Shown: positions 37,835 through 61,196 of the stretch, piece after piece
Layout: every line of letters begins with the position of its first letter
How positions within the stretch are numbered: the stretch's first letter is position 1
DNA from: Hemileia vastatrix
Taxonomy: Eukaryota; Basidiomycota; Pucciniomycetes; Pucciniales; Zaghouaniaceae
Direction: 5' to 3'
Length of the DNA stretch: 64,000 nucleotides
NCBI GenBank assembly: GCA_030280995.1
Contig: JASXTE010000015.1
Span: 17,374,001 to 17,438,000 of the forward strand
Made by a program: the position numbers and the translations under genes
The notes under the pieces: model-generated
Databases searched by the model: none
Told to the model about the DNA's origin: nothing
What the model saw: only the letters and a program-made list of their open reading frames with translations

Positions 37835-38739
37835 ATGAATACTAGAAACACTTCCATTAACACAAAAAATACCACCAACGTTGTGGACGCAATCCAGCAG
37901 TTTGTGCGCACACAGCCCATTGCTGCTCCACCTACGACACCAGTAACTATGCTGATGGGTGAGACAAGATGCACCCGCTGCATCAAGAATGGCATAACTC
38001 CCTGCCACTTCTCAAAAGCCCGCCGTGGCAATAATTTCTTTAGTGTAAATTTTCTTCACTTCACTTCCTTCCTTTCTTCCTATTACTAACTTCTATTTCT
38101 TTCTTTCCTAGTCATGCGATTACTGTAAAAAATGCAAAAAGAAGTGTAGTTACAATGGGCCTCCCACTGTTGCGTGCCTGGACCCCAACGCTTCTACTAA
38201 TAATAACATTCCTTATGAATCACCATCACTTCCTACTTTTCCCAGGCACAAAATATCTATCCAGCCTAGAACTGCACCTTCTTCCACTCCGAGCTCTAAT
38301 GCTTCTATGCGCTCAGGCTCCACTACAGCTGCTCCTGAGGCGGTTACCGTTTCTTTGCCATCAGCTGGCCCACAAAATCTATTAGCAAGTAAGTACCCTT
38401 CATTATACTTATACTTTCCTTACCCGCTGACTCTTTTCAGGCTTCAATGAATCCATCTCCCTGGGATGGGTTCCTATTCCTTTACCCTTTGTTCATTCCA
38501 TGCGAATGTTTTCCAGGCTTCACCTTATATATGACGCTATGTCTCTATCCTATTATAACGCACCAGCTTTTTCTGACGCTGAACTTGAAGCTCGCTACAC
38601 CCATATAGAAATGATAGGTCAACTAATGAACAAAATCAGCTCATTAACTATTCTTGGATTCCCCGCCAATCCTCGTCATTTCATCATGCCTGAAGACTGG
38701 AAAGGATATCCTAATAGCTTTAACCACGATACTGAATAG
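37835..38739 (+). CDS. Antisense Zn2Cys6-like protein of element F (three exons, open)
   Basis: Lies on the strand opposite to F gag-pol. Exons are 37835-38044, 38112-38388 and 38441-38739. Introns start GTAAAT and GTAAGT and end TAG and CAG. The joined frame has 262 codons including TAG and no internal stop. The N-terminus has six cysteines spaced CX2CX7CX14CX2CX6C (CTRCIKNGITPC .. CDYCKKCKKKC), close to the fungal Zn2Cys6 DNA-binding cluster. A Ser/Pro-rich linker follows (SPSLPTFPRHKISIQP), then a helical C-terminal part with MPEDWKGYP near the end. The first exon matches E gene 1 (44572) and the C-terminal part matches E gene 2 (46127), so this is a fusion made by deletion. The start lies 137 bp from the LTR; TATTAATA is about 100 bp upstream. 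Probable nuclear DNA-binding protein (inference). Confidence 0.75.
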
Positions 38740-39040
38740 TCCACTAGCGCTCTCCATATGAGCCTTCTTTGTCCATTATCCCTGTACATAGTCTTCATCT
38801 TTTTTTTTGCTATGCCTTTAAATAATCATTTTAGACACAGCGCTATTCTTCTACACCTGTCTTCCATACTACTTGTCTTCTAAATTTAGAGCGCCTAACT
38901 TTGCTCCCTCTACTTTCTTTAAAAGACTGTAAACCCTATAAAAAATTCATAAATAAACTTTAAATCATAAAAATTTACCACCTTTACTGCAATACAAAAA
39001 TACACAATGTAAATAAGAATTGAACTGTAGAGCACCCCAT
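38740..39040 (+). other. Tail between the antisense gene and the chromodomain-like frame of F
   Basis: About 300 bp, also present in E (46924-47211) with close similarity. No open frame of note. It probably contains the convergent transcript ends of the antisense gene and of the element. Confidence 0.4.
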
Positions 39041-39226
39041 CTATAAATTGGTATTCCACTCCTGGTTAGTTAACTCATTAGCTAAAATCCCAGTGTCTTT
39101 TGCGTTTACATGGTATGCATCTCCTTTAATCCAATTTCTTATCTCGTCATGTCCCCTCGAACAATGAAAATATAAGATTTCATGTTCCTCTACACCCTCA
39201 TCTGAGCACTTATGCCAGTTTCCTGT
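39041..39226 (-). pseudogene. Chromodomain-like C-terminal segment of element F
   Basis: Minus-strand frame of 61 codons, NWHKCSDEGVEEHEILYFHC, then SRGHDEIRNWIKGDAYHVNA and LTNQEWNTNL, ending TAG at 39041-39043. The LYFHC-RGHD-NW order resembles the LYLVKWKGY..TWEP core of chromodomains. The same frame is conserved in E (47212-47397), with mostly conservative changes and no extra stops. It starts just after TGA and a CAG that could be a splice acceptor, so it may be an exon joined to pol. How it connects is unresolved. Confidence 0.4.
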
Positions 39227-39332
39227 TCAGCCATAGTCCACCTAACTTCCAGTTAGCGCCCTCTATCCATCACAACTATGTCAAATCCTCCTGTGAGTCC
39301 TCTTAGAAAAACAAAGCTTAAAATAACTTGTT

Positions 39333-39449
39333 ACTTTAACCTCTTCCAGGAGGTAACATAAAATATCATAAAAAAACCACAAAAGAACATTGATAGTTTA
39401 GCCTCCTCCCGGAGGTCATTCTGGTAGTTTTTCCTCATTCCAGAGGTTA
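39333..39449 (-). repeat. Three stem-loop-TAAACT units at the end of F pol
   Basis: On the minus strand: CCTC TGGAAT GAGG AAAAACTA (39424-39449), CCTC CGGGAG GAGG CTAAACTA (39394-39417) and CCTC CTGGAA GAGG TTAAAGTA (39333-39357). All have a 4-bp stem and a 6-nt loop. The first encodes the last pol residues (DNLWNEEKLPE) and ends at the pol stop. Confidence 0.75.
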
Positions 39450-42400
39450 TCTTGCATCACTTGAACACCCCTTGGGTAGAATTTTTTGATCTGATCTGCA
39501 GCCACATGTCGCTTCCATTCAGTACCATCCAGCTCCTCAAGTAAGTAAGACCCCCCAGTTATCTTTTTCTTATCCTATAAAGACCATTCCATCTGTCAGC
39601 AAACATCTTTCCCCATTGGCTTTCTAAACTTCTATTATAAAACAAAACCAAATCTCCTGGGTTCAATGGCTTCCTTAACTTATGCGCTAAATGCTTATCC
39701 CAATATTTAACTGACTTGTCCTGAATCTGCATCATTTTATCATATGCCTTCTCCACAAACTCGTCCTTTCTTTCAAGCTGCGCTACACTCGATAGAATTA
39801 AATCTTCAGTCGAGCACTCTTGATCCCAGTCACATCCTAGAAATGATCCAGCCTCTAGATCAATAGGTAATACCACCCCTTGACCAAACATAAGTTCATA
39901 TGGTGAAAACCCTGTTGTCCGTTTAACTTAAATCCTGTCCGCAAACAAAACTAATGGCAAGTAGTTCTTCCACTTTGCCCCATTGTTCCCACATAATTTA
40001 ACTAGCGCATCCTTTATAACTTGATGCCCTCTTTCTACCATCCCCTCTGATTCAGGATAATATGGTGTTGCAACTCGTAACCTTGCACCAATACCTTTGA
40101 CTACCTCTTGGAATTATCCAGAAAATTCAGGGCCACCATTTACGGTAACCATCTTCATCACCCCATACCTATAAACCCATTCTTTCTTCAAGAGTTCAGC
40201 TACAATACTCGCATTAAGATTTACCAACGGCGCTGCTTCAACCCATCCTGATAGATCATCCCTGGCTACTACCAAGTATTTAAAGCGTCCTTCTTTTATA
40301 TGAACTGCATCTAAACTGACCCTACCAAAAACAGTATCTTTGCCCGTTGCTCTACCTTTCTCTTTTGGCTTTCTGTAACTCCTACTCTGACATTCAGGAC
40401 AAGATTTGACCCAATCTCTTACTTCATTCTTCATATTGGGCAACCAGAATCTTTCCCTAACTCTGCAATACGTCTTGTCTTGACCTCTATGTCCTAAATT
40501 CTCATGTAACTCCCTGAGTATCTTCTCCTTCCTTTTCCTAGTTTGAACAACTAACTGAGGAAATGAAGCTTGATCCTTTCATAACTTCCCATCTTTAATA
40601 AAATAGCCTTTAGTGCGCTTCTCAATATTGTGCCAAACCTTTTTATCGCAAAAATCTGGTGGACTACTGCCTTCCAGATATAACCTTAACAACTCTACTC
40701 CCTCATCTGTAGCTGCTTCGTCTTCAGAATACTCTTCCTCTTCAGTATGAGTACTACTATCTTGACTTCCCCTTGAATCATCTTCATCATCTAACTCTTC
40801 CACTGCCTTGCCTAGCGCACTCCTTGTCGCTACGTTAGCTTCAGCATTCCCTAAATCCAGTTGCAGACTAACTTTGCTAAAAACATCCTTCGCATCATCA
40901 ACATCTAGTTTTATATCTTTATGGACATTCCACGCTACTAGTTTATTGTCATTGCGGAAGACCTTGCCAAATCTTTCATAACAATAATCTATCCCACTTA
41001 CCAATCTCTTATCTTCTTCAAATTCTTTGGCTTCCAAGTCTTCTTCACACAATGGTCTTCTAGATAATGAATCTGACATAGTGAACGATATTCCCGGCTT
41101 ATGGACTAAATCAAAAGAAAACAAATAAATCTAGGCCACCCACCTCGTCATGGGTGCATCTGGTAAACTTGGGCTACTAATCATTTGCACCAACAATAGC
41201 GCATCAACCTGCAACTCAAAATGTTGCCCCCAAAGCATCCATTTTAGCTTCTTAAGTATCTTTGCTACTCTGCATAACTCCAGCTTAGACTGAGAGTAAC
41301 TAGACTCTAATCTAGTAAAAGTCTTAGATTCATAAAGGAAAGGTCTATCATTACCTTCCTCATCCTCCTGCATCAAAACTGTGCCCACTGCAGACACACT
41401 AGAATCCACCGTTAGAGTAATTTTCCCAGAGCATGGTCCATACTCCAATCTCTTCAAAAGAATATCTTTTCCTACAATCCTTTTCAACAAATCAAATGAC
41501 TCATCGCATTCCTCCATCCAATCCCATACAACATCTTTTCTCGTTAAGCGTCTTAAAGATGAAGACAACAAAGCAAAATCTCAAATAAAAATTCATACAT
41601 ATGTACAAATGCCTAAAAATCCTTTAACTTACGTAGTATTTCTTGGCCTCAGCCATGTAAGCACCTTATTCTTCTCCTTTTCAGCAATGATCCTCCCTTC
41701 CTTGCATACCACATGTCCCACTATATCTAGCGCTGGAACACAACAAGCAAATGTGGATCCAGAGATTGTTAATCCTGCCTCTCCTATCCTGAATAGCACT
41801 CTTTCCAGAGTAAGTGCATATTTGCAAACAAACCTTCTAATATATGGATTCTCCTCTAACACTTCCCCATTGTAATCTCTGGCTGGTCCTTTTATACCAC
41901 CATCATCAATGAAAATTCCCACATGATCTGGAATTTCATCCTGAAATATCCACATCATCTGTGCTTGGTATACCGCCACAGAATTTGTTGCGCCCTGAAG
42001 TTACCTTGTCAACCTGAAGCTCCCCAGTGGGGTTTCAAACGTAGTCATGGGTCTGGATGATTCGTCCAATTTGCGCTCATCGTATCCTCCCATAATATCA
42101 CCTAATCCGTAACATGCACTTCCGGCAAAAGAATCCACAAACTCCTCCGGCGTTGGTGGCATTCCTGCGTCCTTTACCGTAACCTTTTTCATCTCCCTAA
42201 TATCATGAACAACCCTTAATTTACCATTGTGTTTAACAACACAAAACACTGGACTTGAATAACTAGACATAGACTGTTTATACAAGCCAGACCTTAACTT
42301 TCCCCTAATTAATTCCATATACTCTTCTCTTATAGCCACTAGTATTGGAAAAGCCTTCTTTTGCCACGGCACATGAGGTATAACTTGAACAATATAAGGT

Positions 42401-43226
42401 TTACCATAAGAGTGTTTCAACAAACCCCTTTCCTCTTCAGAAAAAGCAATAGCCTTTTCTCTGAGAACCATAACATGTAACAACAACTTCTTTTCTTCCT
42501 GCGACAACCAATCCTCTGGTCCAAAATTAACCATCTGAAGCCTCTCCATTGTGATTTTACTAGTAGGCGCAAATTCAGGTGTCAACTTTGTTAAAGGAGT
42601 ATCATAAGGATTCCTAGACAGTGCCGGCCTCTGCAAAGGAGGATTCAAATCCGGCATTGGTACATTTACTGGTTAAACCTTGACAGCCACTGGTTTATAC
42701 TTAGATTCTAAACAGCACTTGCTGCTCCCTTCATTACTTAAAATCAAACCCTTTTTAATATAACTACATGTTACACCTAAATCCTGTTTTTGTCTTTTCT
42801 TTTTAATATAAGTATAAAAAAATCCATAATCAAAGAAATCAAAAAGCTTAGGTATAATACATTCTACTGTAGTATTCCCAAGACACCTATGAAGTACCGC
42901 TTTACATATCCCTTCTTGTTGAACTGACTGGTCACTATCCAGGTTCCTCTCATCCTGTGAGATAGTAACACCTAAAATGCCAGTCCCTAATGAAAATGTT
43001 GGCGCCTTCCTGGATGTCACCCTATCTCGTCATCTGAGACTTCCTCATAAAACTCTCTTTCATTCTCTAACCGCGCAGCTCCAGAGTACTTAGTTTCCCA
43101 GCCACCATCCTTAGGCGCTACTAAGACTGCTGTTACTGGAACACCATCATCACCCATAATCCTTATTCCAATAGTCTTATTCAAACAATAATCAATAGTT
43201 GCAGAATAATCCATTAAAAATGGTGT
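39416..43226 (-). pseudogene. Pol of element F, degenerate
   Basis: Pieces in order on the minus strand: the spacer after protease (MDYSATIDYC.., ending TGA 43017-43019 with the next frame starting across it), the RT start (PDLNPPLQRPALSRNPYDTP), RT (GLGDIMGGYDERKL, FIDDGGIKGP), RNase H (LTVDSS), integrase and GPY/F end (WNGLYRIRK) to TGA 39416-39418. Stops in the main frame are at 42673, 42001, 41629, 41131, 40579, 40114 and one near 39920. At 41131 CAG became TAG by comparison with E. The second catalytic aspartate of integrase reads N (TVNGGPEF, 40138-40140). A frameshift near 39570 follows. Not functional. Confidence 0.85.
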
Positions 43227-44459
43227 TGTAGACTGTTCTAAAGTACTAAGCAGTAGACACAATGCAAGATGGGTTGGTTCTCCTTTTCAATTTCTAAAAA
43301 GAAGCGCCTGCTACTCTTATTTTTAAAGACAGCGCAATAATGTGTAACACTAATTTTTGATTAGAAAGTTTATAAGATGAGAGATGAGTTTTAGAGATCA
43401 GGAAAACAAGTATTACTATCTGGATATTTCTATTCTTAATAAGCACTAATATCCACAGCTACTTTCTCTTGAAGAATTCTCTTTGAATATGCCTTATTAC
43501 AGCAATAAAATAACTCTAATAATAGTTACTCCTACTAAATCTATATATTGTCTCTATGTTGCGCTCTTTCACTATACTAAATGAAATACACACACAGACA
43601 CACAAATGATAAAAGACTCAGAAAATATCTCTAATTCACTATTCTATTTTACTTATATATATATATATTTCTTCTCTCTCTCTGTGTGTGTAAAAAGCTC
43701 CCTATCTCTATCAAATAGTCCTCCTTTTTATATTTTTCCAGTACTCAAGACACAGTTTGCTAGTGGATCTTCAGCGCTGGTTCTAGCGCCTTATTAGTAA
43801 AATAATAGCTAATCTATTAGTAACTAAGTACACTTCTTGTAACAACTACAGCACCTAAAACATACCCTATGATTACTAATGCTAGTATTAACTTGTTTCA
43901 CTCATACTCCACATATGCGTTTTTGACTCTACCTTGGTTTTTGTTTCAGCGCTATTTTCAGTTTTGACCCATTCTAACACTGATCCTAGCCGCCTTGACT
44001 CTTGGGTAGTTTTGTGATTGAGTCCCCACTCTCCTTTTTTTAATACTAAGTTCATAGTCTTGGCAATTCGCTCAACTAGTTAGCCTCCCTTATTACCTGT
44101 TTCAGTAAGTTACCTGACTAGCCGCGGTACAGTATACTATGCACTTGAATTGTCCTCAAGTCATAACTCTTTTCTTAATGTGTAACACATAATTATTGGA
44201 AAGTTCAAATCCATATTGTTTAGCGCTTTATGGTCCTAAATTAATAACACACAATTCCCCATTGTGCAGCACATCTTGCTACAAAATCCAAGCGCACAGA
44301 CTCTTAATCCTTTTCCACGCTTCCATTCCCTTTGTTCTTTGAAACACGCAAATACATATTATATTTTAGCACTTCCTACTGCCCTAACTTCCTTTGTTTT
44401 TCCTGGACTACGCGCACTGATTGGTCTAAAATTATGCAACCTGCAAGGCGTGTACCACA
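43227..44459 (-). repeat. 3' LTR of element E
   Basis: 1233 bp. On the minus strand it starts TGTGGTACACGCC and ends CAGTCTACA (plus TGTAGACTG..TACCACA). It pairs with LTR F. A CT/TG-rich microsatellite (CTCTCTCTCTGTGTGTG) is at about 43674-43690, and the AGCGCT palindrome recurs. Left flank GTGT (43223-43226) is the candidate duplication; the partner copy is outside the window. Confidence 0.85.
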
Positions 44460-44469
44460 TCCTCCCTCT
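44460..44469 (-). promoter_or_regulatory. Polypurine tract of element E
   Basis: Minus strand AGAGGGAGGA next to the LTR start TGTGGTAC. Confidence 0.75.
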
Positions 44470-44571
44470 ACTTGCGACTGTCCCCAGGAGCCCATAAATA
44501 CCTGCGTCTCGCAGTGTTTTCTTCCTCCATCTTCTGTCTTCTTCTCCTATTTATCATCCTCTTCTCTTATA

Positions 44572-45625
44572 ATGAATACTAGAAGTACCAATCTTAACAC
44601 TGAAAATACTGCCAATTTCATGGACGCAATTTGACAGTTTGTGCGCACTCAGCCCCCTGCTGCTTCACTAACAACGCCCATAACTACACTGATGGGTGGG
44701 ACAAGATGCACCCGCTGCATCGAAAATGGCATAACTCCTTGTCATTTCTCAAAAGCCAGCCGTGGCAATAATTTCTTCACTGTAAGTCATCTTCACTTTC
44801 CTTCCTTGTTGTTACTAACCTTTCATTTCTTTCACCTTTTTTTTTGTTTTAGTCATGCAATTACTGAAAGACACGCAAAAAGAAGTGTAGTTACAATGGG
44901 CCGCCCACCGTTGCACGCCTGGACCCTAACGCTTCAACTACTAACATGATGAGTCAAATAACCATCAAGGGCCCAGTGCCTGCTCCTGTTACCCCACCTG
45001 GTAACAAACAAACCAAGGTTGGTTACCGCAAACCTACACCCAGTAGCGTCGCTTCTGTCCCAAGATCTCTCTTTTCAGAGGAAAGTACTGTAAGTCTTCT
45101 TTTCCTACTTCTTCCTTTCTTAATCCTAACATTTTCTTTCTCTTTTTTTTTTTTCTATTTTAGAATGCGCCAGGCACACCTTACGCTGAAACGCCTCCAC
45201 CTCCAAACGTTCCTCAATTCCTTCCAGCCTTGGAAGAAGACCCTGTCTGGGATACTGTGCCTATTCCGGAGTGTACTCCTTGTATACCCACCCCTGACTG
45301 GACAACTATGCAGCCGGTCTTCAATACCATCATCCCGGACAAATGGCCCGTTGAAACTACTCCGTAAATCGATGATGAAGAGCCTGCTGCCACTCAAAAC
45401 TGGGAATTCGCAGAGCAAATTGCCTGCTCTCCATAAGATGCGACCATGCGTCGTATGAACAACATGCTAACTGCCGTCGAAGGATTCCTCGAGGCGTTCC
45501 CTGTTTATACTTGCGCCAAGTATAACAAACGAAAACAGCTAATAACCACCTTGCAACAAAACATGAAAGAGGCTGTTTACAACTGGGCTTTCTGCGTTCC
45601 AATCTTTGATGACACAGAATACTAA
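44572..45625 (+). pseudogene. Antisense gene 1 of element E, Zn2Cys6-like, four stops
   Basis: Exons 44572-44781, 44853-45089 and 45164-45625, all joined in phase (210, 237 and 462 nt), with GTAAGT donors and TTTTAG acceptors. Exon 1 holds CTRCIENGITPC and exon 2 the second half of the cluster (SCNY-stop-KTRKKKC). Exon 3 encodes VPQFLPALEEDPVWDTVPIP, a TPDW motif and a helical end (MRRMNNMLTAVEGFLEAF). Stops: TGA 44632-44634, one TGA in exon 2, and two TAA in exon 3 (first at 45365-45367). Its first 70 codons match exon 1 of the F gene. The C-terminal exon has no counterpart in F because of the deletion there. ATAAATA at about 44488 is a possible TATA box; the start is 112 bp from the LTR. 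Confidence 0.7.
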
Positions 45626-46126: not shown

Positions 46127-46923
46127 ATGACTCAATATCGTACCGTCCCAAAAGATCAAGCGTGCTTGTTTTGTAAACGCCGCAACTTTCATTGTACATT
46201 TTCTAAACCTTGGGGGTATGCCTCCTTTAGACCTGCCTGTGACAATTGCTTTACATACCACAAAACTTGCAATATCTCTTTAAACCAGAATACTCCTCTG
46301 CATACTGGTTATATTTTCTTTCCACCTAGCTCTACTAGTAGTGCCCCCATAGCTACAACCACTAGTCCCACTATTTCCGCTAATAATAATGTTCCTTATG
46401 AATCTCCATCGCTTCCTAGTTTTCCCAGGCGCAAAATATCTATTCAGCCTAGCGCTACACCTTCTTCCTCTCCGAGCTCCAATGCTTCTATGCGCTCAGG
46501 CTCCACTGCAGCTGCTCCTTACGCGGTTACCATTACTTTGCCATCAGCGTGCCCACAAAACTTATTAGCAAGTAAGTATCCTTTATTATACTTACGCTTC
46601 CTTTACCCACTGACTCTTTTTCAGGCTTCAATGAATCCATCTCCCTGGGATGGGTTCCTATTCCTTTACCCTTAGTCCATTGCATGCAAATGTTTTCCAG
46701 ACTTTGTCTTATATATGACGCTATGTCTCTATCCTACTCTAATGCACCAGCTTTTTCTGAAGCTGAACTTGAAGCTCGCTATACCCATATAGAAATGATA
46801 TGTCAGCTAATGAACAAAATCAGCTCATCAACTATTCTTGGATTCCCCGCCAATCCCCGTCATTTTGTCATGCCTGAAGACTGGAAAGGATATCCTATTA
46901 GATTTCACTCTGATACTGAATAG
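46127..46923 (+). CDS. Antisense gene 2 of element E, Zn2Cys6-like protein (two exons, open)
   Basis: Exons 46127-46571 and 46625-46923, intron GTAAGT..TTTCAG. 248 codons including TAG, no internal stop. N-terminal cysteines CX2CX6CX14CX2CX6C (CLFCKRRNFHC .. CDNCFTYHKTC) fit the fungal binuclear zinc cluster except for a slightly long middle loop. A Ser/Thr/Pro-rich linker (residues ~65-145) follows, then a C-terminal region (FNESISLGWVPIPLP .. YDAMSLSY .. ELEARYTHIEMI .. MPEDWKGYP) shared with the F gene. The middle loop lacks the basic RxxKxKC signature of classic activators, so DNA binding is inferred, not shown. E pol on the opposite strand is broken several times, yet this gene is intact. 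Confidence 0.75.
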
Positions 46924-47397: not shown

Positions 47398-47501
47398 TCA
47401 GCCATAGTCCGCCTAACTTCCAGTTAGCGCCCTCTATCCATCACAACTGTATCAAAGCCTCCTGTGAGTCCTCTTAGAAAAACAAAACTTAACATAACTT
47501 G

Positions 47502-49520
47502 TTAGTTTAACCTCTTCCCGGAGGTATTATTCTGGTAGTTTTTCCTCCTCCGGAGGTTATCTTGTATCACTGGAACACCCCTTGGGTAGAATCTTTTGAT
47601 CTGATCTCCAGCCACACGTCGCTTCCACTCAGTACCATCCAATTCCTCCAGTAAATAAGACCCCCCATTTATCTGCTTTCTTATCCTATATGGACCGTTC
47701 CATCTGTCAGAAAACATCTTGCCCCATTGGCTTTCTAAACTTCTATTATAAACCAAAACCAAATCTCCCGGGTTCAATGGCTTCCTTAACATATGCGCTA
47801 AACGCTCATCCCAATATTTAACTGACTTGTCACGGATCTGAATCATTCTATCATATGCCTTCTCCACAAACTTGTCCTTTCTTTCAAGCTGTGCTACCCT
47901 CGCTAGAATTAAATCTTCAGTCAAGCGCACTTGATCCTAGTCACATCCTAGAATTGATCCAGCCTCCAGATCAATTGGTAATACCGCCCTTTGACCAAAC
48001 ATCAGTTCATACGGTGAAAAACCTGTTGTCCTTTTAACTGAAATCATGTCCGCAAACAAACCTAATGGAAAATAGTTCTTCCATTTTGCCCCATTATTTC
48101 CACATAGTTTAACTAGCGCATCTTTTATAACTTGATGCCCTCTTTCTATCATTCCCTCTGCTTCAGGATAATATAGTGTTGCAACTTGTAACTTTGCGCC
48201 AATGCCTTTTACTACCTCTTTGAATTCTCCAGAAAATTCAGCGCCACCATCTACGGTTACCTTCTTCATTACCCCATACCTGTAAATCCATTCTTTCTTC
48301 AAAAATTTGGCTACATTACTCGCCTTGAGATTTACAAACAGCGCTGCTTCAATCCATCCTGATAGATCATCCCTGGCTACTACCAAGTATTTAAAGCGTC
48401 CTTCTTTTATATGAACTGCATCTAAACTAACCCTACCAAAAACAGTATCTTTGCCCATCGCTCTACCTTTCTCTTTTGGCTTTGTGTAACTCCTGCGCTG
48501 ACATTCAGAACAAGATTTAACCCAATCTCTTATTTTTTTTCATATTGGGCCACCAGAATCTTTCCCTAACTCTGCAATACGTCTCATCTTGACCTCTATG
48601 TCCTAAATTCTCATGTAACTCCCTGAGTATCTTCTCCTTCCCTTCCCTAGTTTGAACAACTAACTGAGGAGACAAAGCTTGATTCTTCTATAACTTCCCA
48701 TTTTTAATAAAATAACCTTTAGCGCTCTTCTTAATGTTGCGCCAACCCTTTTTATTGAAAAAATCTGGTAGACTACTACCTTCCAAATATAACCTTAACA
48801 ACTCTACTCCTTTATTAGTAGATGTGTCGTCTTCAGAATACTCCCCTTCTTCGAGATGAGTACTACTGTCTTGACTTCCCCTTGAATCATCTTCATCATC
48901 TGACTCTTCCACTACCTCACCTTGCGCACTTCTTGTGGCTACGTTAGCTTCAGCATCCCCCAAATCCTGTTGCAGACTACCCTTGCTACAAACATCCTTT
49001 GCATTGTCAATATCTATTTTTATGTCTTTATGGACCTTCCCCATTACTAGTTTATTGTCATCACAGAAATTACTGTTAAATTTTCATAACAATAATCCAT
49101 CCCATTTACCAATTTCTTATTTTCTTCCAATTCTTCCGCTTCCGAGTCTTCTTCACACAGCGGTCTTCTTGACAATGAATCCGGAATAGTGAAAAATTTT
49201 CCTGGTTTATGGACTAAATCAAAAGAAAACAAATTAATCTGCCCTACCCACCTTGTCATGGGTGCATCTGGTAAACTCGGGCTACTAATCATTTGCACCA
49301 ACGATAGCGCATCAACCTGCAGCTCAAAATGCTGCCCCCAAAGCATCCATTGTAGCTTCTTAAGAATCTTTGCTACTCCCAATAACTCCAACTTGGACTG
49401 AGAGTACCTGGACTCCACTTTGGTAAAAGTCTTAGACTCATAAAGGACAGGTCTATCATTACCTTCCTCATCCTCCTGCATCAAAACTGCACCCACCACA
49501 GACACACTAGAATCTACCGC
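47502..49520 (-). pseudogene. Pol C-terminal half of element E (RNase H to integrase end)
   Basis: Begins at the D insertion inside RNase H (VDSSVSVVGAVLMQ), then ESRYSQSKLELLGVAKIL and QVDALSLVQMI. A frameshift follows near 49065 and an acidic linker (49044-48688) ends at TAG 48688-48690. Integrase is open from 48458: LDAVHIKEGRFKYLVV, TVDGGAEFSG, EGMIERGHQ, with DDE residues present. TAG 47937-47939 replaces a tryptophan seen in F (CDWD). The GPY/F-like end (WNGPYRIRKQINGG) runs to 47502. A shortened loop in the final stem-loop unit shifts the last codons. Confidence 0.85.
47504..47558 (-). repeat. Two stem-loop-TAAACT units at the end of E pol
   Basis: On the minus strand: CCTC CGGAG GAGG AAAAACTA (47536-47558, loop one base short) and CCTC CGGGAA GAGG TTAAACTA (47504-47526). 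Equivalent to the units at the end of F, D and C pol. Confidence 0.75.
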
Positions 49521-50629: not shown

Positions 50630-50631
50630 GT

Positions 50632-50648
50632 TGGTGCCCAACATGGGG
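50632..50648 (+). promoter_or_regulatory. Primer binding site of element D
   Basis: TGGTGCCCAACATGGGG, two bases after the LTR; two changes from the tRNA-Lys-like site of element C. Confidence 0.8.
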
Positions 50649-50805
50649 TTCAATTTCTCTAGATTTCTTTAAAGACTTACTTGGATCAAGAACGTTCTTA
50701 GCCTGCAAGAGGCTTATTTTCTGGAACTCTAATTGGATCTTTGTTAATGGCCTGCAAGAGGCTTGTTATTTTATCGATTGTTAACGCTTTTTATTACTTA
50801 TTGGG

Positions 50806-53390
50806 ATGTCTTCTTCTGCTGTTGCATCTGGATCTTCTAACCCTCTTACTCCCTCTGTTAGGATTGTTTCTTGGGATGGCCCAAAGTTTGATGGGGAGGA
50901 GGTTAAATGGTTCATTAGCAGTTATGAAGCTGCTGCTGCTGTTGATGGTGCTTCTCATGTGGATATGATGAAGCAAGTTAGGTTTTTTATTGCTGATAGG
51001 GAGGTGGAAAAAGAGGTTATTGCTATGCAGGCATTCAAGGACAAGGATTGGGTTAAGCTTTCTAAAGCTATGGTTGATAGATGGGGTGTTAGGTTTACTA
51101 TGATGGACCTCAATAAAATTGTTGGAGACTGGCAAGCAAAAGGTGGAGTTTCTTCTATGGCTGACTTCAAAAAGCTCTGTGTTCAGTTTGATGAAGTGGT
51201 GGAATATCTCATATTGGTGGATGAGTTAGTGCATGAGAATCAAGCAAAAGATTTGTTTTGGACAGCATGCAGCAGGGATATTCGTATGGACGTCTTGAAG
51301 GATCTTTCAAGAAAAGATTTGATGAAGGAACTGCCTAATGGTGAGCAGAAACTTCCGGCTCTGGAGGTTATCAAAGAGAACATTCAAGCCCATCTAAAGT
51401 TATTGGCGTTGGACAAATATCAAGAGTCATGCACTCAATATGTTAGCAAGGTTAGCGAAGTTTTGGCCAAAAACAATGATATTATGGTCAAAGCCCAGGA
51501 GGCCAAGAAGGCTCAAATGGGATTACCTGCTGCTAAAGTTGAGGGCAATGTAGATAATAAGATGGTTGATCATTTGGCCGATTTAACTAAACAATTAAAA
51601 ATATTTGTTCAAGAAACTCAGAAGGCTAACAAGGCCCCAATCGCTTCTTCGTCGACGTCGACTTCTTATCAGTCCAGAGGTTATGAACGTCGAAATTATA
51701 ATGGCAATAATAATGGTAACCGCTTCCCAGGCAATGGGAGAAATGGTGGGAATGGTGGTAATGGATATAGAGGTGGCTACGATTAGCCAAAGGTGTGCTC
51801 CTATTGTAATAGGAGGGGGCACAGAGCAACAGTTTGTTTTGCTCTTGATAAGGATATGGATGCTGGGCGAGTTTTATTTGATGGTAAAGTTTATAAATTT
51901 CCTGATGGTTCGTTCATCAAGCCCAGTGATGGACAGTCTCCTTCTGATTTGGTCAGAAGAAGTTTAACGGCTGAAAGGAGAGCCAGATTTGAAGAGGTGA
52001 CGGATGAAGATGTTAATGCCAATGGTGGTAAAGCTGAAAAGGGCAAGGAGAAAGAGGTCAGTAAAGCCACATTTTCTACTTCTTTTGGTGGTTTAGAGCT
52101 GGCGACGGTTGCCCAGGTGGAGGGTAGCTGTATGGCTGGCAAATACGATGTTAATGCTGCTAGAAGAGCAGCTGCTACTAAGGCGAAAAGTAGCATTCAG
52201 AGCCAATTGAGGGCTAATCCTGGCAAGGCCAATAAAAAAGTGAACCCTTACTCTAAGGACAAGAATTCTAGTGCTCAAACTGCAGCCAACAAATTGAACC
52301 CTTACTCTAAGGACGAATTATATAAAATGCAGAAGGGGATTGCTGATATGGGGCCCCCTAGTTATGGAAAGTTTGATTTAAATGGTGAGCCTATGCCAGA
52401 GGATGATTTGGATTCTGAGGAGGACGTACCGTTGGCGTCTCTACCCAGACCAAGTTTTAGCGGTCCCATCCCAATGGAGGGAGTAAGAAGGACTAGCAAT
52501 GGATCAGGATTAGTGCAAGAAGCTGGTGACGGAGTTAGGGTTATAGAAAGTGAAGATGTTATAATGGGGGGTGAAGATGGCTCAGTTGGACCTCAAGAGG
52601 TACCCAGGGCCAAGGTTGTTAAATCAAAGGTCCAGTATGAGCGGTCAGTAGTTTCTGGTCAAGCTAATGCGATGGACGCAGTTTTGAATAGGGTGAATCA
52701 ACTGCAGATTCCCTTATCTTTAGGGGAGTTATTTACGATTAGTCCGGCGCTTGCTGAAAAGCAAAAGAAGCATTTGACGAGGCGTCGGGTTTCCACTGGA
52801 GAGGTGGAATATATTTGTGAAAATGCTGAAAAGTTTGGGGAAGATGTAGATACACATTTTTCCGCTCCCCTGGGTTACCTGGTGGTAACTCTTAACGGTA
52901 AAGAAGTAAAGGCCTTGGTCGATTCAGGGTCTCAAATTAATTTAATTTCATTGGAGCAAGCGACGAGTATAGGCTTACCAATTAAAAGTGGCACTGGGGG
53001 AAACCTCAGAGGCATTGGAGGGCATGCAACAGAGCTGATGGGTACAGCTGAGCATGTCAGGTTAGGCATTGGTGGATCTGTTGGTAAGGTTCACTTTTAT
53101 GTGGCCAGAGGAGCAGTCAAAACTGTACTTGGTGGTCCTTTATGATGGATTTTGAGGCCAGGATAGGGTATCAAGCTGGCATGGGGATTAGTTTGGAGAT
53201 CACTGGTGAAGATATGCGGAGGTTACGTATGTGGTTAGCACCTCCTGGAGATGAAGGTTGGGAAACACAGCCAGGGATTACTACTCTGTGCCAGTGTTGT
53301 GTTTGCACCAAGAAGCGGCATATAAAACGGACGGCTTCTGGTGAATTATGTTTGTTGGAAAGGGATGAATGCCCTCATTTTTTGGGGTAG
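50806..53390 (+). pseudogene. Gag-protease of element D, one stop and one frameshift
   Basis: ATG 50806 (MSSSAVASGSSN). The capsid-like domain (WDGPKFDGEEVKWFISSYE) is followed by a Gly/Asn-rich stretch and TAG at 51784-51786 just before the CCHC zinc knuckle CSYCNRRGHRATVC (51796). The frame is open again to 53145 through the protease motif VDSGSQINLIS. A one-base loss near 53140 shifts the end; the shifted frame 53142-53390 continues MDFEARIGYQAGMG and a cysteine cluster CQCCVCTKK. The pol frame starts at ATG 53369, overlapping the gag-protease end by 22 bp in another frame. The duplicated KLNPYSKDELYKM / KVNPYSKDKN segment near 52240-52330 is a short internal repeat. Confidence 0.85.
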
Positions 53391-56300
53391 CAGGGGCTGA
53401 TCACTCTAATGTTGTAATCTCTCCTCAGAATGAGATCCCGGATTGCAATAGGTCAGCTCACTTGGAGATAATTCAAGTGGATTCTCAATTATTTTCTGTT
53501 AATATTACTTTGGAGTGCAAATACGTTTTGGACTTTTCTATATGTTTATTGGATTTACCCTGTTTTTCTATTAAATTTAAAAATGGTGAAAAAGGCAAAA
53601 TGGGCCAAATTAGGTTGGATAAAGATTGGAAGGGTATGTTTTATGACCTCCAGCAAGAGGGTAAACTGCAAAAATCTTATCAAAATCCAATAAAAAATCT
53701 CAGTATAATTAAAACACAAAAAAATAATTTTTGTGAAAATGTTATTCCGGACCTCCAGCAAGAGGTTAAACTGCAAGTATCTCCTTCTATTTTGGGCCTC
53801 CAGCAAGAGGTTAAACTGCGAAAATCTCATCAAAACTCGATTAGAAATCTCAGTATAAGTAAAACACAAAAAAATAATTTATGTGAAAATTTTATTCCGG
53901 GCCTCCAGCATGAGGTTAAACTGCAATTATCTCCTTCTATTCCGGACCTCCAGCAAGAGGGTAAACTGAAAAAATCACATCAAAATACAATAAAAAATCT
54001 CAGTATAATTAAAACACAAAAAAATAATTTTTGTAAAAATTCAATTCCGGTCCTCCAGCAAGAGGTTAAACTGCCAACTTTCTTTACGGGCGATTTACTG
54101 TTGGATAAGGGAAGCAAAGGTGTTGGAAAATCTGTTTATAAATTAAACGAGGGAAAGGAGAAAAGGGTAAAATTTAAAAATGAAATAAAATATTTTTCTA
54201 ATTTTTCTTATTCTGATTCTGGCGATGAAGAAGATTCATTTGATGAAATTTTTAATGGCGATACAAAAGTAAATGTTATACCTCAAGCTTATTTAGATGT
54301 AGACGCAGCCAAATATAAGAAGGTATCAAATAAAGTTCGACCTATTAATGAACTGCTACCTGCTGAATTAAATCCACCTTTGAGAAGACCAAGGTTATCA
54401 AGAGATCCTTATGAAAGTCCCTTGGTAAAGAAACCGCCTGAATTTTCTGAGACTTCAAGAATCACTTTTGAGAGACTGGGTGTTGTTAATTTTGGACCTG
54501 ATGGTTGGTTGTCTGGAGAAGAGAAGAAGTTGTTGTTGGATGTGATGGTCAAGCGCGAGAAGGCCATTGCTTTTGTAGAAGAGGAGAGGGGTGTGTTGAA
54601 GCATTCCTATGGGGAGCCTTACAAGATTCCTGTGGTATGTCATGAACCGTGGCAGCAGAAACCGATTCCTATTCGGGCTGCATTAAAAGAAGCCTATATT
54701 GAAGTTGTCAGAGAACGGATACGCACTGGACTGTATGAGCAATCAACATCAAGTTATTCTAGTCCGGTATTTTGTATCAAGAAACCAAATGGCAAGCTTA
54801 GAGTTGTTCATGATCTTAGGGAATTAAATAGGGTTACAATAAAGGATGCTGGGATACCTCCTAGTGCTGAGGAGTTTGTTGAAGCGTTTGCAGGGAGAGT
54901 GTGTTTTGGTTTGGGAGATATTATGGGTGGATATGATGAGAGAGAGTTACATCTGGACTCAAGGCCTCTCACTACATTCGATACACCACTTGGACGTTTA
55001 CAGTTAACAAGATTACCTCAAGGAGCAACAAATTCGGTTGCAGTTTATCAAGCTCAGATGGCTTGGATCCTTCAAGACAAAATTCCACAATATGCTGGAA
55101 TCTTTATAGATGATGGAGGAATTAAGGGACCAACAACCGACTATGATAACCAGGTGTTGGAAGAGAATCCCGGGATACGCAAATTCATTTGGGAGTTTGC
55201 AATTACTTTAGAAAGAATCTTGTTTCGAATTGAAGAGGCTGGTTTAACTATTTCAGGTTCAAAATTTTCATGTTGTGTGCCAGCCCTAGAAATATTAGGC
55301 CATGTTGTATGTAGAGAGGGTAGGATTATGTCCAAGAAGAAAGTTAACAAAATTCAGTCCTGGCCAAGACCCAAGAATACGACCGAAGTTAGAGGGTTTT
55401 TAGGCGTTTGCGTATATGTTAGAATGTTTATCAAGGACTTTTCTTCATTGGCAGCTCCATTGAGACGGTTAACGAGAAAGGATGCAGACTGGGAGTGGGA
55501 TGAAGAGTGTGAGAAGGCGTTTGTGAAGTTGAAGGAGGTTGTAGGGAAGGATTTAGTCCTGCACAAGTTGGATTATTGAAAAGAAGCTGGCAGAATTTAT
55601 TTAGCAGTTGATTCAAGTCAGGTTGCAGCTGGGGCGGTTCTGTCTCAGATGGATAAAGCTGGTTACATCAGGCCAGTTAGGTATGAATCTGTAGTATTTA
55701 CTGAGGTCGAATCAAGATATTCTCAACCAAAATTGGAATTATGTGGTGTGGCAAAAATACTGAAGAAACTTCAGCATATTTTGTGGGGGAAACATTTTGA
55801 GTTGCAAGTGGATGCAAAATCTTTAATCCAGATGATTAATTCCCCAAGTTTACCGAACGCACCCATGACGAGATGGGTAGCTTGTATTCAACATTTTTTG
55901 TTTGATTTAGCTCATAAGCCTGGCAAAACTTTTACTATGCCAGATGGTTTATCAAGGAGACCACCCACTGAAGAAGATTCAGACTCAGATAAGTTCGATG
56001 AAGATATAACTATTATCAAAGCCAGCACTAAAGGAGCTGAAGACTTTCCATACCTCCCCCATGAGGTTAAACTGGCAGGACTATTGTGTTTAGATTATGG
56101 TGATGATGACCTCCACCAAGAGGATAAACTGGAAAATAGTTTTTATGTTAATAAAGGTGTTGGAAAAGGTGTAGATAAATTTGGTAGAAAGGAGGTAGAA
56201 GAAGATGTGGTGTATGTAGAGGAAGATGGATTGGTAGTGTGGGATAGTAGTAATTTAAGGAATGGTGTATATGTTGGAGAATTAGAGAATTTAAATAAAA

Positions 56301-57796
56301 AGGTGGATAAAGAGAAAGAGGTATTTTTGAATACGGTTTATGAAGGATACAAAGGTTCAGAAGAAAAACGTCAACATAGCTCGATTAAAGATTTATTTAG
56401 GGGTCAACGATTATTGGCTCATTCATGTGCAGGTGATATTGGTGATAGAGAAGTCCCTATTGATGTTATATTAATCGATTTTCAAGATGAAGTCTGGGGT
56501 CAGACTGGTTTTTATTTTTTGTTAGTCAAATATTTGTTGACTTTAGAGAGGCCAGAAGATTGTGAAGACGATGAATGGGCGGCTATCAAGAGGAAGTCAT
56601 CTACGTTTTACCTATCTGGTTGACGTTTAATGAGGAGAAGGTATCCAAATCCTCAAGTAGTTATAACTCAACAGAAGGGGCAAGAATTAGTTTTGAAATC
56701 ACTGCATGAAGATCTCTGGCATAGAGGCGTTGGAGAAACGTTTAGAAGAGTTTCTGATCAATTTTGGTGGCCTGGCATGAAGATGGCTGTTAAACAGTGG
56801 GTTCAGTCATGCGAAGAATGTCAAAGACAAAGTTATTTAAGGCCAAAAGAACCTGGACGCGCCACCGGTGAATATACGCTCTTTGGAAGAGTTAGTTTAG
56901 ATGCCGATCATATAAAAGAGGGATGGTATAAATATTTAATAGTGGCCAGAGATAATTTATCTGCTTGGGTAGAGGCAGCGCCTCTTATTAATTTAACTGC
57001 CAAAAATGTGGCAGAATTTTTTTTGAATAATTGGGTATATAGGTATGGGGTGATGAAGTTGGTAACGGTAGATGGAGGTCCTGAATTTGGGACAGAGTTT
57101 AAAGAGGCCGTATTGAAAGTTGGATCAAAGGTTAGGGTAGCAACCCCATATTATCCTGAAGCTGAAGGCATGGTTGAAAGAAGGCATCAAGTTATTAAGG
57201 ATGCTTTAGTTAAAATGTGTGGGACAAGTGCCGAAAAGTGGAGGCACTATTTACCTTTAGTTTTATTTGCTGATCAAATCACTGCCAAAAGGACGACCGG
57301 ATTTTCACCTTATGAACTTGTTTTTGGACAGAAAGCAGTTTTACCGGTTGATTTAGAAGCTGAATCATATCTTGGAGTTGACTGGGATACGGTCAAAAAT
57401 ACTGAAGAATTATTGTGTGCAAGAATGATGCAGCTAGAAAAGAAAGAAGAATATTTAGAAAAGGCATATTCACGGATGATGAAGATCCGAAATCAATCAG
57501 TCAGATATTGGGATAAGCGGTTGGCACATCGATTAAGGAAACCTTTGAACCCAGGTGATATTGTCCTGGTGTATAATAGGAGTTTGGAAAGTCAGTGGGG
57601 AAAGATGTTTGCAGATAGGTGGAATGGACCGTATAAAATCAAGGAGCAAGTTTCTGGCGGTTCATATGTGCTAGAAGAGTTGGATGGAGTAGTATTGAAG
57701 AAGAGGGTAGCGGCCAATCAAGTGAAACGGTTCTATCCTAGAGGCACCAGGAGTGCCGAAGTCTACCTCCGCAATGAGGATAAACTATCATATTGA
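53369..57796 (+). pseudogene. Pol of element D, two in-frame stops
   Basis: One frame of 1475 codons with TGA at 55577-55579 and 56621-56623. Order: spacer with six in-frame LQxExKL repeats (53646-54073), RT (GLGDIMGGYDEREL; intact FIDD at 55106-55114), RNase H (LAVDSS, LELCGVAKIL, QVDAKSL), an acidic linker with two further repeats, integrase zinc site (H-x4-H .. CEEC), core (SLDADH, TVDGGPEF, EGMVERRHQ), GPY/F-like end (WNGPYKIKEQVSGG), and a last stem-loop unit encoding YLRNEDKLSY before TGA 57794-57796. All catalytic residues I can place are present, so apart from the two stops pol looks young. No chromodomain. Confidence 0.88.
53646..54073 (+). repeat. Six coding stem-loop-TTAAACTG units in the D spacer
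   Basis: Units at 53646, 53750, 53796, 53900, 53945 and 54050: GACCTC or GGCCTC, loop CAGCAA or CAGCAT, GAGG, then TTAAACTGC or GTAAACTG. All are in the pol frame and encode LQ(Q/H)E(V/G)KL. They sit in a larger ~150-bp repeat (NSIRNLSISKTQKNNLCEN-like) present about three times. Confidence 0.85.
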
Positions 57797-58228
57797 TGAA
57801 ATTTTATGGATTCCTCTGCAATGAGGATAAACTATGATATCAACAAAATTTTATGAATACCTCCGCAACAAGGATAAACTATCTTCTTTTTTATCAAAAT
57901 ACTTTACTATCGTTACACTGTATATGGGCGAAGAAACTATGATGAAACTTAACGAAATTCAAGAAGCCATTCTTTGAAATTTTCCAAAAACTTAAAATTC
58001 TTAAAATATGGGTGAAGATAGTGTTGGAAAATTTTTAAAAATTTATTGGAAGAAGTGTTCACAGGGGAACCTTCTTAATTTAATATTGGCAAGTGTGGGG
58101 GTAATTGATGGGCTGGCTGCTCTATACACAATTACCCCATAATGTTCGTTTCTAAAATTTTCCCTGTTTCTAGTTGAATCCTGGCTTTGTCTTTTAATTA
58201 TAGGAAGTCCACTAAGACTATAAACTGG
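57766..58228 (+). repeat. Stem-loop units after D pol and conserved hairpin 1
   Basis: CCTC CGCAAT GAGG ATAAACTA at 57766 (the last pol codons), near-copies at 57813 and 57860, and GTCCACTAAGACTATAAACTGG at 58206. Between them, 58097-58138 is the hairpin GGGGTAATTG .. CAATTACCCC, the D version of the hairpin duplicated in C. Confidence 0.75.
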
Positions 58229-58355
58229 AACGAATCAAGAGACACCGCTCTCAACGCCGGATTCAAGATTCTTTTTATTTTATTTTGTTTTTGATTTTTT
58301 TATGTTAGATTGTGATTTCTTTTCTTTAATATATATTATGAATTATTGTAAAGGT

Positions 58356-58511
58356 GATGCTCACTGGTGGTCTCTAATCATTTTTATAAATTGGAGGGAG
58401 CCCACCCAGTGATCATCATTATAAAAATTATCTTCTAAAAACTTTCATTTATTTTCTTTCTTTTCAATTTCTCAAAATTGTGTAACCACATCAAGTTGCA
58501 CTTGGATGTGG
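58356..58511 (+). other. Conserved hairpins 2 and 3 of element D
   Basis: Hairpin 2 (58356-58414): GATGCTCACTGG with CCAGTGATCATC around ATCATTTTTA and GGAGGGAGCC. Hairpin 3 (58486-58511): CCACATC..GATGTGG. Order and spacing match element C (30597-30652, 30867-30892), though the sequence between is not conserved. Confidence 0.55.
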
Positions 58512-58664
58512 GTATGATGTTGAGGGTACGGCTCATCAAATGGCCAGGGGGCATCTTTTAAAATTTTTCCTTTTGAAATTTTTTTTATTATTACTTTTTT
58601 TATCTTTCTTTAAAAATTAAATTTTAACTTTTATTTCAAAACTATCTTTTCTAAATCTTTTATT

Positions 58665-58860
58665 TTAAACTAAAAACAAATTTTAAAAAAAATAAAATAA
58701 AATAAAATAAATAAATAAAAATAAAAAAATAAAAAATAAAAATAAAAAATAAATAAAAAAAATAAAAAATAAAAATAAAATTAAAATTAAATAAAAATAA
58801 AATAATTATAAAAAAAAAAATAATAAAAAATAATAAAATAAAAAAATTAATTAATTAAAT
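58665..58860 (+). repeat. AAAAT/AAATA low-complexity tract
   Basis: Almost only A and T, built from AAATAA, AATAAAAT and A runs, on the sense strand of D between the hairpins and the stem-loop array. Likely slippage product; no function assigned. Confidence 0.8.
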
Positions 58861-58990
58861 CAAAATTATTATATTTCTCAGTTTTATTTTTTTAGTTTTC
58901 ATTCTTTTTAGTTTTATTCATTTAGTTTAGACAGGAAACAGCGTCTAGGGGAACTCAATACCTATGAGATTTTACTTCAAGACATCTGTT

Positions 58991-59805
58991 AGTCCTCCAA
59001 GACTTTAAACTGGCTACTGTTCATAACATTCTTTAAGGTTTTTTATACATATTTTGGATCTGTTAGTCCTCCAAGACTTTAAACTGGCTACTGTTCAAGA
59101 CTTTCCTTAAGGGTTTTATACAAATTTTGGAGCTGTTAGTCCTCCAAGACTTTAAACTGGCTAATTTTCAAGAATGTCATTAAAGATTTTATATTGGAGC
59201 TGTTAGTCCTTCAAGACTTTAAACTGAATTTCAAGGATAATCAAGATTTTATGGATATTTTTGGAGACGGATTTTTTTTATATAAATCAAATGTTAGGTC
59301 CACCAAGACCTTAAACTGGAGTGTTATCAAATGTTAGGTCCACCAAGACCTTAAACTGGACTGTTATCAAGCTGTTGGGTCCACCATGACCTTAAACTGG
59401 ATTTATTATCGATCAAATGTTTGGTCCACCATGACTTTAAACTGGTAGTTCATTCATTGTTTAGTCCACTATGACTTTAAACTGGAAAAGTAATATCTGC
59501 AGGATAATTCAACAATTATTGGTCCACTATGGCCTTATACTGGATTACTTGTTGATCAAATGTTTGGTCCACTATGACATTAAACTGGATTATCAAATTT
59601 ATTCAATCTTTGGTCAAGCCTAGGCCTTATTTAGGAATATATCAAGATATTTATGCACTTAAATGATCTTTGGTCCACCAAGACCATAAACTGGCAATCG
59701 ATTATATGTTTGGTCTACAAAGACTTTAAATTGGAATGTCAATCTTGTTTGGATAACTCAATTCAATCTTTTAATTTATCACTGTCCACTAAGACTCTAA
59801 ACTGG
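58991..59805 (+). repeat. 3' array of stem-loop-TAAACTGG units, element D (14 units)
   Basis: Units at about 58991, 59064, 59137, 59204, 59297, 59337, 59378, 59423, 59463, 59521, 59566, 59672, 59712 and 59783; a decayed one at 59612. The first four have stem AGTC/GACT; several later ones have GGTC/GACC, mixed forms using a G-T pair. The loop is always 6 nt (CTCCAA, CACCAA, CACCAT, CACTAT). The tail TTAAACTGG is nearly constant. Spacers of 15-80 bp are unrelated. Confidence 0.88.
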
Positions 59806-60391
59806 TTATTCAATTATTTCTGGAATTGGGTGCTGATAAGCTTTAGGAGGTTAAAATTTTAGGTGGTGATGATGCTAATGAAAGCATAATGGTTAATTAG
59901 GTGAAATTTGTGGCGCTCTAACATGGTCTAAAGTTAAAATTATTATTGGAAGCCTGGCAAAAGTATTTTATGGGTTTGCTGTATAGCAAAGTTTGAAAAT
60001 TGTGATAAAGGAATCAGAAGTTAGGATGGTAGTTGGATTTTAGGGAATGATTTTTTTTAGTGCCTCAGTTTTAGGCCATTTTTGGTGTGAAGCTTGGAGG
60101 ACCTTATGGCGAGATTGGAATCATAGAGTTCGGCTCAGTGGGGGGCCCTATGAGGTTGGAATCAGGAGTATTCGGCTCATAGGAAGATCCACTCTCTCAA
60201 TGCTGTGACAAGAAGGAAGACTGGTATATGGGAGTCTGAAGGGATTCAAACCTTGCTCTCAGTAGTGGAATCATCACAAGATTTATATTATTTTATATTA
60301 TGTTATATCAAGCCAGAGAAGAAAGAAAACAACATTTATGTTGAAAGTTAAAGAAGACCAAGCAAAAACAAAATTTTATCAAGTTATACTG
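59806..60391. other. Non-coding part of D between the array and the antisense gene
   Basis: About 590 bp. Includes a GTTCGGCTCA / ATTCGGCTCA pair near 60130 and 60170. Probably the 3' untranslated region of the antisense gene; no other feature seen. Confidence 0.4.
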
Positions 60392-61083
60392 TTAGAAAAG
60401 ATAATTTCTTTGAAATTGTTCAACATCATTATCAAAGCTTTGCATTAAAATTCTTCTTTTCATGAGGTCTTCATGGTTATTAGCTGGAGTTTCTTGAAAA
60501 TAGGCCAGCATTTTTCGTTTCAACTCATTAGTAAAGTCAAGAAAAAGATAGCGATGAAAATTTGGATAATGATTGATATAGTCCATCTTCACTCTACCAA
60601 CATCATCAGTGTTGCTTATTTTGACAGCTAGAAGTTCAAATATGTTATTAAGTCATAGGTTTAGTCAATTTTGATTAAAAGTTTTTTTTAGTAAGATAAT
60701 AGGGTCTTACATTTAGAGCCAGGAAACATAGTCTCAGCAAAGTTGGTTGGGGGCACTGGCGTTATAGGATTAGGATCTTGTGAAGGCAAAATAAGGTTGG
60801 GATCCGCTGATGAAGATTGAACTTTTGAAGCTGCTTTTGATCTTATTTGTTTTAAGAAGACAGGAATTTTTGATCGCTTTTTAGAAGTTGAGGGATCAGG
60901 GAGAGCTGCTGGTCCTAAATATATGTTTGTTTTAGAAGGAACTAATGGCCGGTTACATTTGACTTTTTTCACACGGCATAAGTCGCAAGCTGTCCTGCCA
61001 GGAAGATTAGGGTTGGACATTAAACAAGGTACCTGGTATTGAGCGCAGAGTTCACATGGAGCGACAAGTTCTTTAGAAGACAT
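60392..61083 (-). CDS. Antisense Zn2Cys6 protein of element D (two exons, open)
   Basis: Minus strand, opposite to D gag-pol. Exon 1 61083-60711, intron 60710-60628 (GTAAGA..TTCTAG, 83 nt), exon 2 60627-60392. The joined frame is 203 codons with no internal stop, ending TAA. The N-terminus has six cysteines in exact Zn2Cys6 spacing CX2CX6CX12CX2CX6C (CELCAQYQVPC .. CDLCRVKKVKC), with the basic residues typical of Gal4-like clusters. Then come a Ser/Pro/Lys-rich linker and, in exon 2, a helical region (FLDFTNELKRKMLAYFQETP .. DNDVEQFQRNYLF). The start lies 123 bp from the 3' LTR. The layout (cluster, linker, intron, helical end) matches the antisense genes of E and F despite low sequence similarity. 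Likely a nuclear DNA-binding protein made from the element's own antisense promoter (inference). Confidence 0.8.
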
Positions 61084-61196
61084 ATTGATGAAGATGAATT
61101 TTATAGCTGATTAAAGAAGATGGTGGTTGAAGGTTAAAGATGAATATTGTGTTCGACCACTTATGCAAAGTTATAAGAATGGGGACATTCTCAATT

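Follow-up and report, generated by a model that had tools for sequence, protein, structure and literature searches.

Predicted antisense genes for Zn2Cys6-like proteins in nested Gypsy-type retrotransposons of Hemileia vastatrix

Antisense genes of three nested elements

A 64-kb stretch of the Hemileia vastatrix genome (C67:17374001-17438000; the window, below) was found to consist of a nest of long terminal repeat (LTR) retrotransposons, three of which, designated D, E, and F, carry one or two genes on the strand opposite to gag-pol. D is nested inside E and E inside F, and F resumes past the 5' LTR of E at continued coordinate 67679. Element D has the features of a Gypsy-type element, namely LTRs, a polypurine tract (PPT), a target duplication (TACCGC or ACCGC), and the domain order reverse transcriptase-RNase H-integrase, which we take to be that of the Gypsy/Ty3 class. 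The distance from the first ATG of the antisense gene to the edge of the 3' LTR was 123 nucleotides (nt) in D, 112 nt in the first gene of E (E1), and 137 nt in F; both these distances and the strand had been given in the first-pass annotation and were confirmed. The coordinates of the genes and of their host elements are collected in Table 1.

Table 1. Antisense genes of elements D, E, and F and features of the host elements (window coordinates)
Feature	Coordinates	Strand	Remarks
D antisense gene, exon 1	60711..61083	-	swapped-order six-cysteine cluster and Ser/Pro-rich linker
D antisense gene, intron (predicted)	60628..60710	-	83 nt, GTAAGA...CTTCTAG
D antisense gene, exon 2	60392..60627	-	C-terminal region
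F antisense gene, exon 1	37835..38044	+	first cysteine triad
F antisense gene, exon 2	38112..38388	+	second cysteine triad and Ser/Pro-rich linker
F antisense gene, exon 3	38441..38739	+	predicted helical hairpin
E1, first antisense gene of E	44572..45625	+	degenerate; same plan, C-terminus differs
E2, exon 1	46127..46571	+	six-cysteine cluster and linker; upstream ATG 46067 possible
E2, exon 2	46625..46923	+	homologous to F exon 3
Element D, Gypsy-type LTR retrotransposon	49521..62324	+	LTRs 49521-50627 and 61207-62324, 97.5% identical
D integrase open reading frame (ORF)	56630..57796	+	Integrase_H2C2, rve
3' LTR of F	36508..37697	-	gag-pol on minus strand
F integrase region	39550..40560	-	stop-broken (three stops)
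3' LTR of E	43226..44459	-	5' LTR beyond window, continued coordinates 66444-67683
E integrase region	47550..48533	-	one stop

The D gene was predicted to contain one intron and to encode a protein of 202 amino acids (aa), and the F gene to contain two introns (67 and 52 nt) and to encode 261 aa. In E, four in-frame stops lie within the exons of E1 as read; the frame of E2 is open across a predicted intron of 53 nt, and its start at 46127 was favored over the upstream ATG because in another copy, E2', the frame is closed ahead of the second ATG. The F gene is a fusion, in that its first part matches E1 and the remainder E2, the two matches joining at a few shared bases, and E holds about 1.4 kb extra between the parts matching E1 and E2. 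In a third E-type copy (E'), located about 28 kb past the window, E1' and E2' lie side by side, with one cysteine lost in E1' and a frame change ahead of the last exon in E2'. Since the two-gene plan thus recurs, the single-gene form of F is best read as having arisen from it by deletion.

The Ser/Pro-rich linker was judged by eye. A helical C-terminus had been ascribed to all of these proteins; this stands as a prediction for F exon 3, where a structure model of that exon only, built from two sequences, consisted of two long helices (block predicted local distance difference test [pLDDT] score 70-84, whole model 63.7). The model of the D exon 1 frame was of low confidence (pLDDT 52.9) and was set aside.

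The six-cysteine cluster

Each protein has the triad CX2CX6C twice (with X7 in the first triad of F), the two triads being 12-14 residues apart, and the D cluster follows exactly the spacing CX2CX6CX12CX2CX6C reported for it in the first-pass annotation. Within the 64 kb, the motif CX2CX6CX5-16CX2CX6C was found in D and E2 only, that of F being split by an intron, and in 60 copies of the window generated by a second-order Markov model it did not occur. Together with the conserved genomic copies described below, this ruled out the objection that the cysteine spacing had arisen by chance.

Whole proteins were compared with the Pfam Zn_clus profile (PF00172, gathering cut-off 21 bits), against which D scored 24.1, F 17.2, and E2 13.6 bits; no domain other than the cluster was found by Pfam in the antisense proteins (202-267 aa). 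When six pieces of the proteins were scanned separately, three matched Zn_clus and three matched nothing. The first triads of F and E2 matched the second half of the profile (positions 20-37 and 19-35, respectively), whereas the second triad of D, CDLCRVKKVKC, matched the first half (positions 1-15). The E2 first triad alone scored 16.7 bits, and the whole-protein match of E2 (residues 31-72) ran in the ordinary order over profile positions 1-34. GAL4-type proteins have their two cysteine triads in a set order, and the Pfam profile implies the same order; relative to it, the halves of the cluster are, judged by these matches, swapped in D and F. The cluster is therefore called Zn2Cys6-like here and not Zn2Cys6: the six cysteines of the earlier assignment to the Zn2Cys6 type stand, and its identity with the standard domain does not.

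A protein of this kind might instead be a nucleic-acid-binding helper of replication or of nuclear import, such as an extra nucleocapsid or import factor, and not a regulator of transcription. This is possible, if unlikely: the swapped halves in D and F and the passing of the Zn_clus cut-off by D alone are in keeping with it, as are the basic residues in the second triads of D and F, which suit RNA as well as DNA, but it would be odd for a particle protein to be encoded opposite to, and expressed apart from, gag-pol, and the presence of a gene-less D subfamily at two sites (see below) also speaks against it, though help in trans could be given.

On the minus strand at L024:3364 (continued coordinate 216364) lies a third gene whose cluster is similar (CTACELMEYFC...CQFCRWRRVSC, the basic triad second). 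It has a frame break and lies within an insertion with 572-nt direct repeats in transposon sequence, where it is not clearly antisense to a pol gene.

Genomic copies and selection on the protein

The 747.6-Mb genome was searched for further copies. At least 150 matches to D exon 1 (92-100% identity; best matches from 8384 first-look candidates, with 150 scored) and at least 150 to F exon 3 (86-100% identity; the best 150 from 1614 candidates) were obtained. One stop was carried by 13 of the 150 listed D matches and a stop by 22 of the 150 listed F matches (manual count), rates which are biased low because both lists hold best matches. Twelve D-type and 14 E/F-type copies were picked by hand down the lists from stop-free rows only, and the sets compared comprised 13 D-type sequences including D and 17 E/F-type sequences including F, E2, and E2'. 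The gene was thus present in many related copies, with conserved exon lengths and splice sites.

In the D type, the splice ends GTAAGA...CTTCTAG and an exon 1 of 373 nt were found in all 13 sequences, the intron was 81-84 nt long, and exon 2 measured 236 nt in 12. In one copy (L042) the frame is broken and contains a stop, and in another (L035) the stop is missing from its usual position; the six cysteines were retained in 12 of 12 D-type copies. In the E/F type, all 17 sequences have an exon 3 of 299 nt, a GTAAG or GTAAA donor, and an AG acceptor, and the intron was 52-53 nt long in 16 and 38 nt in one. The exon 2 part was one nt short in three of the 17 and the stop codon was in place in 16. 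Identity was 91.7% in exon 3, compared with 80.7% in the intron and 89.1% in a short 3' flank.

The surroundings of the genes were conserved as well. In 13 of the 14 E/F copies, integrase was located at the expected distance and on the opposite strand, none being seen in L080. In 10 of the 12 D copies, a 601-nt stretch at the expected distance matched D in the opposite orientation, as expected, and in five of the 12 this stretch included the integrase itself; the two exceptions were L051, which gave no match, and L046, which matched the gag region in the other orientation. The LTR/PPT edge lies 122-123 nt ahead of the ATG in nine of the 12 D copies, and the exact word was not found in three.

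Selection was estimated from pooled pairwise ratios of nonsynonymous to synonymous differences (pN/pS), which are rough because the pairwise comparisons are interdependent, insertion is followed by decay, and the copies had been chosen for their lack of stops. The ratio was 0.35 for the D type (12 copies, excluding the frame-broken L042) and 0.37 for E/F exon 3 (17 copies), compared with 0.30 for integrase pieces of the E/F type, which served as the yardstick (15 copies: 13 of the 14 fetched plus E and F). Variable columns at first, second, and third codon positions numbered 8, 7, and 13 (shared) and 12, 13, and 23 (single) in the D type, and 18, 9, and 24 (shared) and 11, 11, and 16 (single) in E/F exon 3. 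Between F and E2, the corresponding substitution ratio (dN/dS) was 0.44 over 161 codons and 0.38 in exon 3, and 25 amino-acid changes were counted against a mean of 31.5 in neutral simulations (P ~0.02); this pair alone is weak because a reverse-strand frame of exon 3 that shares third positions scores 0.27. Insertions and deletions between F and E2 numbered none in 486 shared exon nt, one in the 52-nt intron, and seven in 621 flanking nt, one of the seven lying at the end of the alignment. Roughly estimated, then, the protein sequence appears to be under selection close to that on the E/F integrase in the sampled copies. On these comparisons of sequence, D, E, and F carry spliced-looking, selected antisense genes that are not products of chance.

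The antisense RNA could itself be the working part, for instance as a source of double-stranded RNA, and retroelement antisense transcripts can act as RNA according to the accessible parts of two sources (PMC7264820, PMC10186651). Exons that keep their frame, length changes that fall mostly in introns, and pN/pS values below 0.4 point to the protein, and although both roles may hold, a role for the RNA in place of the protein is improbable.

Proposed role and comparison with known systems

The antisense genes are probably, though by no means certainly, genuine accessory genes belonging to two related Gypsy-type families, with a product that most likely acts in the nucleus, binds its own element, and tunes sense transcription or copy number across copies. 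Transcription antisense to gag-pol would be driven by a promoter at the inner margin of the 3' LTR, and one or two short introns would be removed from the transcript, as suggested by the splice sites and conserved frames. The product would consist of the N-terminal six-cysteine cluster, the Ser/Pro-rich linker, and a C-terminus, predicted to be helical in F and E2, that may dimerize. It would bind zinc and DNA, most likely enter the nucleus, and there bind the LTR or an internal region of its own element, and it may tune sense transcription or copy number across copies; this HBZ-like regulatory role is one that we infer by analogy. A bolder version, by which the elements bring their own DNA-binding regulator of a new, swapped-order Zn2Cys6 architecture, encoded by a spliced antisense gene and acting across copies as an independent analogue of HBZ that supports gene-less subfamilies, is unlikely.

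Several results weigh against accessory genes of this kind. The C-termini of D and of F/E2 showed no similarity by hhalign, and a common origin is not supported. The PF00172 cut-off was passed by one of the three proteins (D), with F and E2 below it, and the order of the halves in E2 is ambiguous because its whole-protein match runs in the ordinary order. In D-type exon 2 alone, variable columns by codon position were 3, 2, and 1 (shared) and 4, 6, and 6 (single), so that the excess at third positions is absent among shared columns; shared two-state columns of the D type comprised eight silent and 12 non-silent changes, and the D-type intron (96.8% identity) was as alike between copies as the exons (96.1 and 97.8%). 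Intact genes were favored in the 26 sampled copies because stop-free best matches had been chosen. In a set of 5.8 billion proteins, no relative was scored for D (21 candidates) or for F and E2 (7990 scored) at E values up to 10, while relatives of pol were present in the same set; this null result says little because the search detects only proteins with exact words in common and genes of this kind may be missing from gene sets. Viral contigs gave no confirmed match to pol or to the antisense proteins.

To these points are added elements in which the gene is missing. Two D-type copies, D2 and D3, which are separated by about 25 kb and differ in their left flanks, share a deletion with an identical junction (D 60425 to 61149) that removes the gene, and D3 has a target duplication. 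This represents loss, and not gain in D, because the last part of the gene, including the stop codon, is still present. The gene-less form has most likely transposed. Since it occupies two sites, the element does not require the gene in cis, and gene-bearing copies may provide help in trans. Element C, a close relative by pol (81% in integrase), has no cysteine-rich antisense frame in the three frames of 30000-31640. The occurrence of gene-bearing and gene-less copies of one family in one genome offers a natural comparison for the role of the gene.

The loss in D2 and D3, the absence from C, and the decay of E1 are also what would be expected of a passenger, that is, a zinc-cluster gene of the host that was acquired once by an ancestor and is of no use to the element. 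Such a gene should decay, however, whereas the pN/pS of both types is near that of the E/F integrase and, in one copy, the F antisense gene is open while the F integrase has three stops; a mere passenger is accordingly hard to credit. Even less credible is a role in counter-defense, in which the protein would act on host chromatin or silencing and keep the element expressed: the general plan of the protein, with its nuclear-type zinc cluster, is all that hints at such a role, and action in trans would fit the gene-less copies, but no host target was suggested by any result.

A short palindromic repeat, AGTTTA-N-(CCTC/AGTC/GGTC)-N6-(GAGG/GACT/GACC), was observed at 39 places of the window in TC-N6-GA register (26342-31412, 39395, 40940, 47504, 49049, 53667-54072, and 56073-59803). 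All 39 lie on the strand opposite gag-pol, which is that of the antisense genes (12 in C, 23 in D, two in E, and two in F). The outer pairs were complementary in 31 of the 39, compared with a mean of 12.1 and a maximum of 22 in 2000 shuffles, and control words gave at most five paired places; the halves covary, as do those of RNA hairpins or dimer sites. Three 150-nt tandem repeats (53640-54089), in the D frame 53369-55579, contain two palindromes each. Beyond the window, 16 palindromes were found in each of D2 and D3 and two in the E' region, on one strand only, and 11 more on the other strand at 110000-283000. The palindromes could be targets of the antisense protein, but their distribution does not support this, C having 12 without the gene and E and F two each with it.

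Other parts of the nest comprise a chromodomain-bearing Gypsy-type element of another type, whose ORF spans 1439 aa, and an inversely oriented 77% relative (566-4885 and 13594-18105). Past the window, at continued coordinates 67679-69828, the remaining end of F abuts an E/F-type LTR in inverse orientation. Among the best 120 of 1216 relatives of the element C pol ORF, Puccinia was the highest named fungus, with Austropuccinia, Phenoliferia, and Tilletia lower; two labeled as a bacterial metagenome-assembled genome were taken as contamination.

The first-pass annotation had put forward the genes as something not described, which went too far. Additional antisense genes in the interval between pol and the 3' LTR are known from plant Tat/Retand-type elements, and their role in LTR retrotransposons is treated as an open question in the accessible parts of the sources (PMC11963269, PMC7264820). 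For the plant Retand, Grande, and RIRE2 elements (Tat-type Gypsy; e.g., TRP28 proteins), the same parts give predicted DNA binding and a proposed regulatory role. Retand also has tandem repeats in this region (PMC11963269, in part), as does D between pol and the antisense gene (57764-59486). The present genes differ from those of Retand and Grande in their predicted introns, six-cysteine cluster, and fungal host; a word search of the main text of PMC11963269 found no mention of intron, zinc, or fungi.

Nearer in host are the Boty-like retrotransposons of Botrytis cinerea, fungal LTR retrotransposons with an added antisense gene, brtn (Zhao et al. 2011, as cited in the accessible parts of PMC7264820, PMC8365987, PMC4227169, and PMC5987419). 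Compared by description and not by sequence, BRTN has no zinc cluster or introns mentioned in those parts of the citing papers. The Boty gag-pol has a chromo domain (PMC4227169, in part), and a scan of D ORFs revealed none. No Zn2Cys6-like gene in or antisense to a retrotransposon was found described among the listed titles and abstract starts of the open-licence literature, and the words antisense and zinc are absent from the main text of two papers on rust transposons (PMC12210899, PMC10067951).

GAL4-type Zn2Cys6 factors (PF00172) share with the present proteins the two cysteine triads, and in D the second triad resembles the first half of the canonical cluster. The present proteins differ in the order of the halves, which is swapped in D and F and ambiguous in E2, and in being short, and the cluster arrangement scored under the Pfam cut-off in two of the three proteins scanned. 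In the human T-cell leukemia viruses, HBZ (HTLV-1) and APH (HTLV-2/3/4) are nuclear regulators made from a spliced antisense transcript from the 3' LTR, and APH-3 and APH-4 are reported to suppress transcription driven by the 5' LTR (PMC10186651, accessible parts); in the present genes, splicing is predicted. HBZ is a basic leucine zipper (bZIP) protein and APH lacks the bZIP, both belong to animal retroviruses, and no kinship with the zinc-cluster proteins is claimed. Accessory antisense genes being already known from plants, from the fungal Boty elements, and from HTLV-1, the part that appears to be new here is the zinc-cluster type, with a product that resembles a recognizable fungal DNA-binding class and that appears, in the sampled copies, to be under selection near that on integrase.

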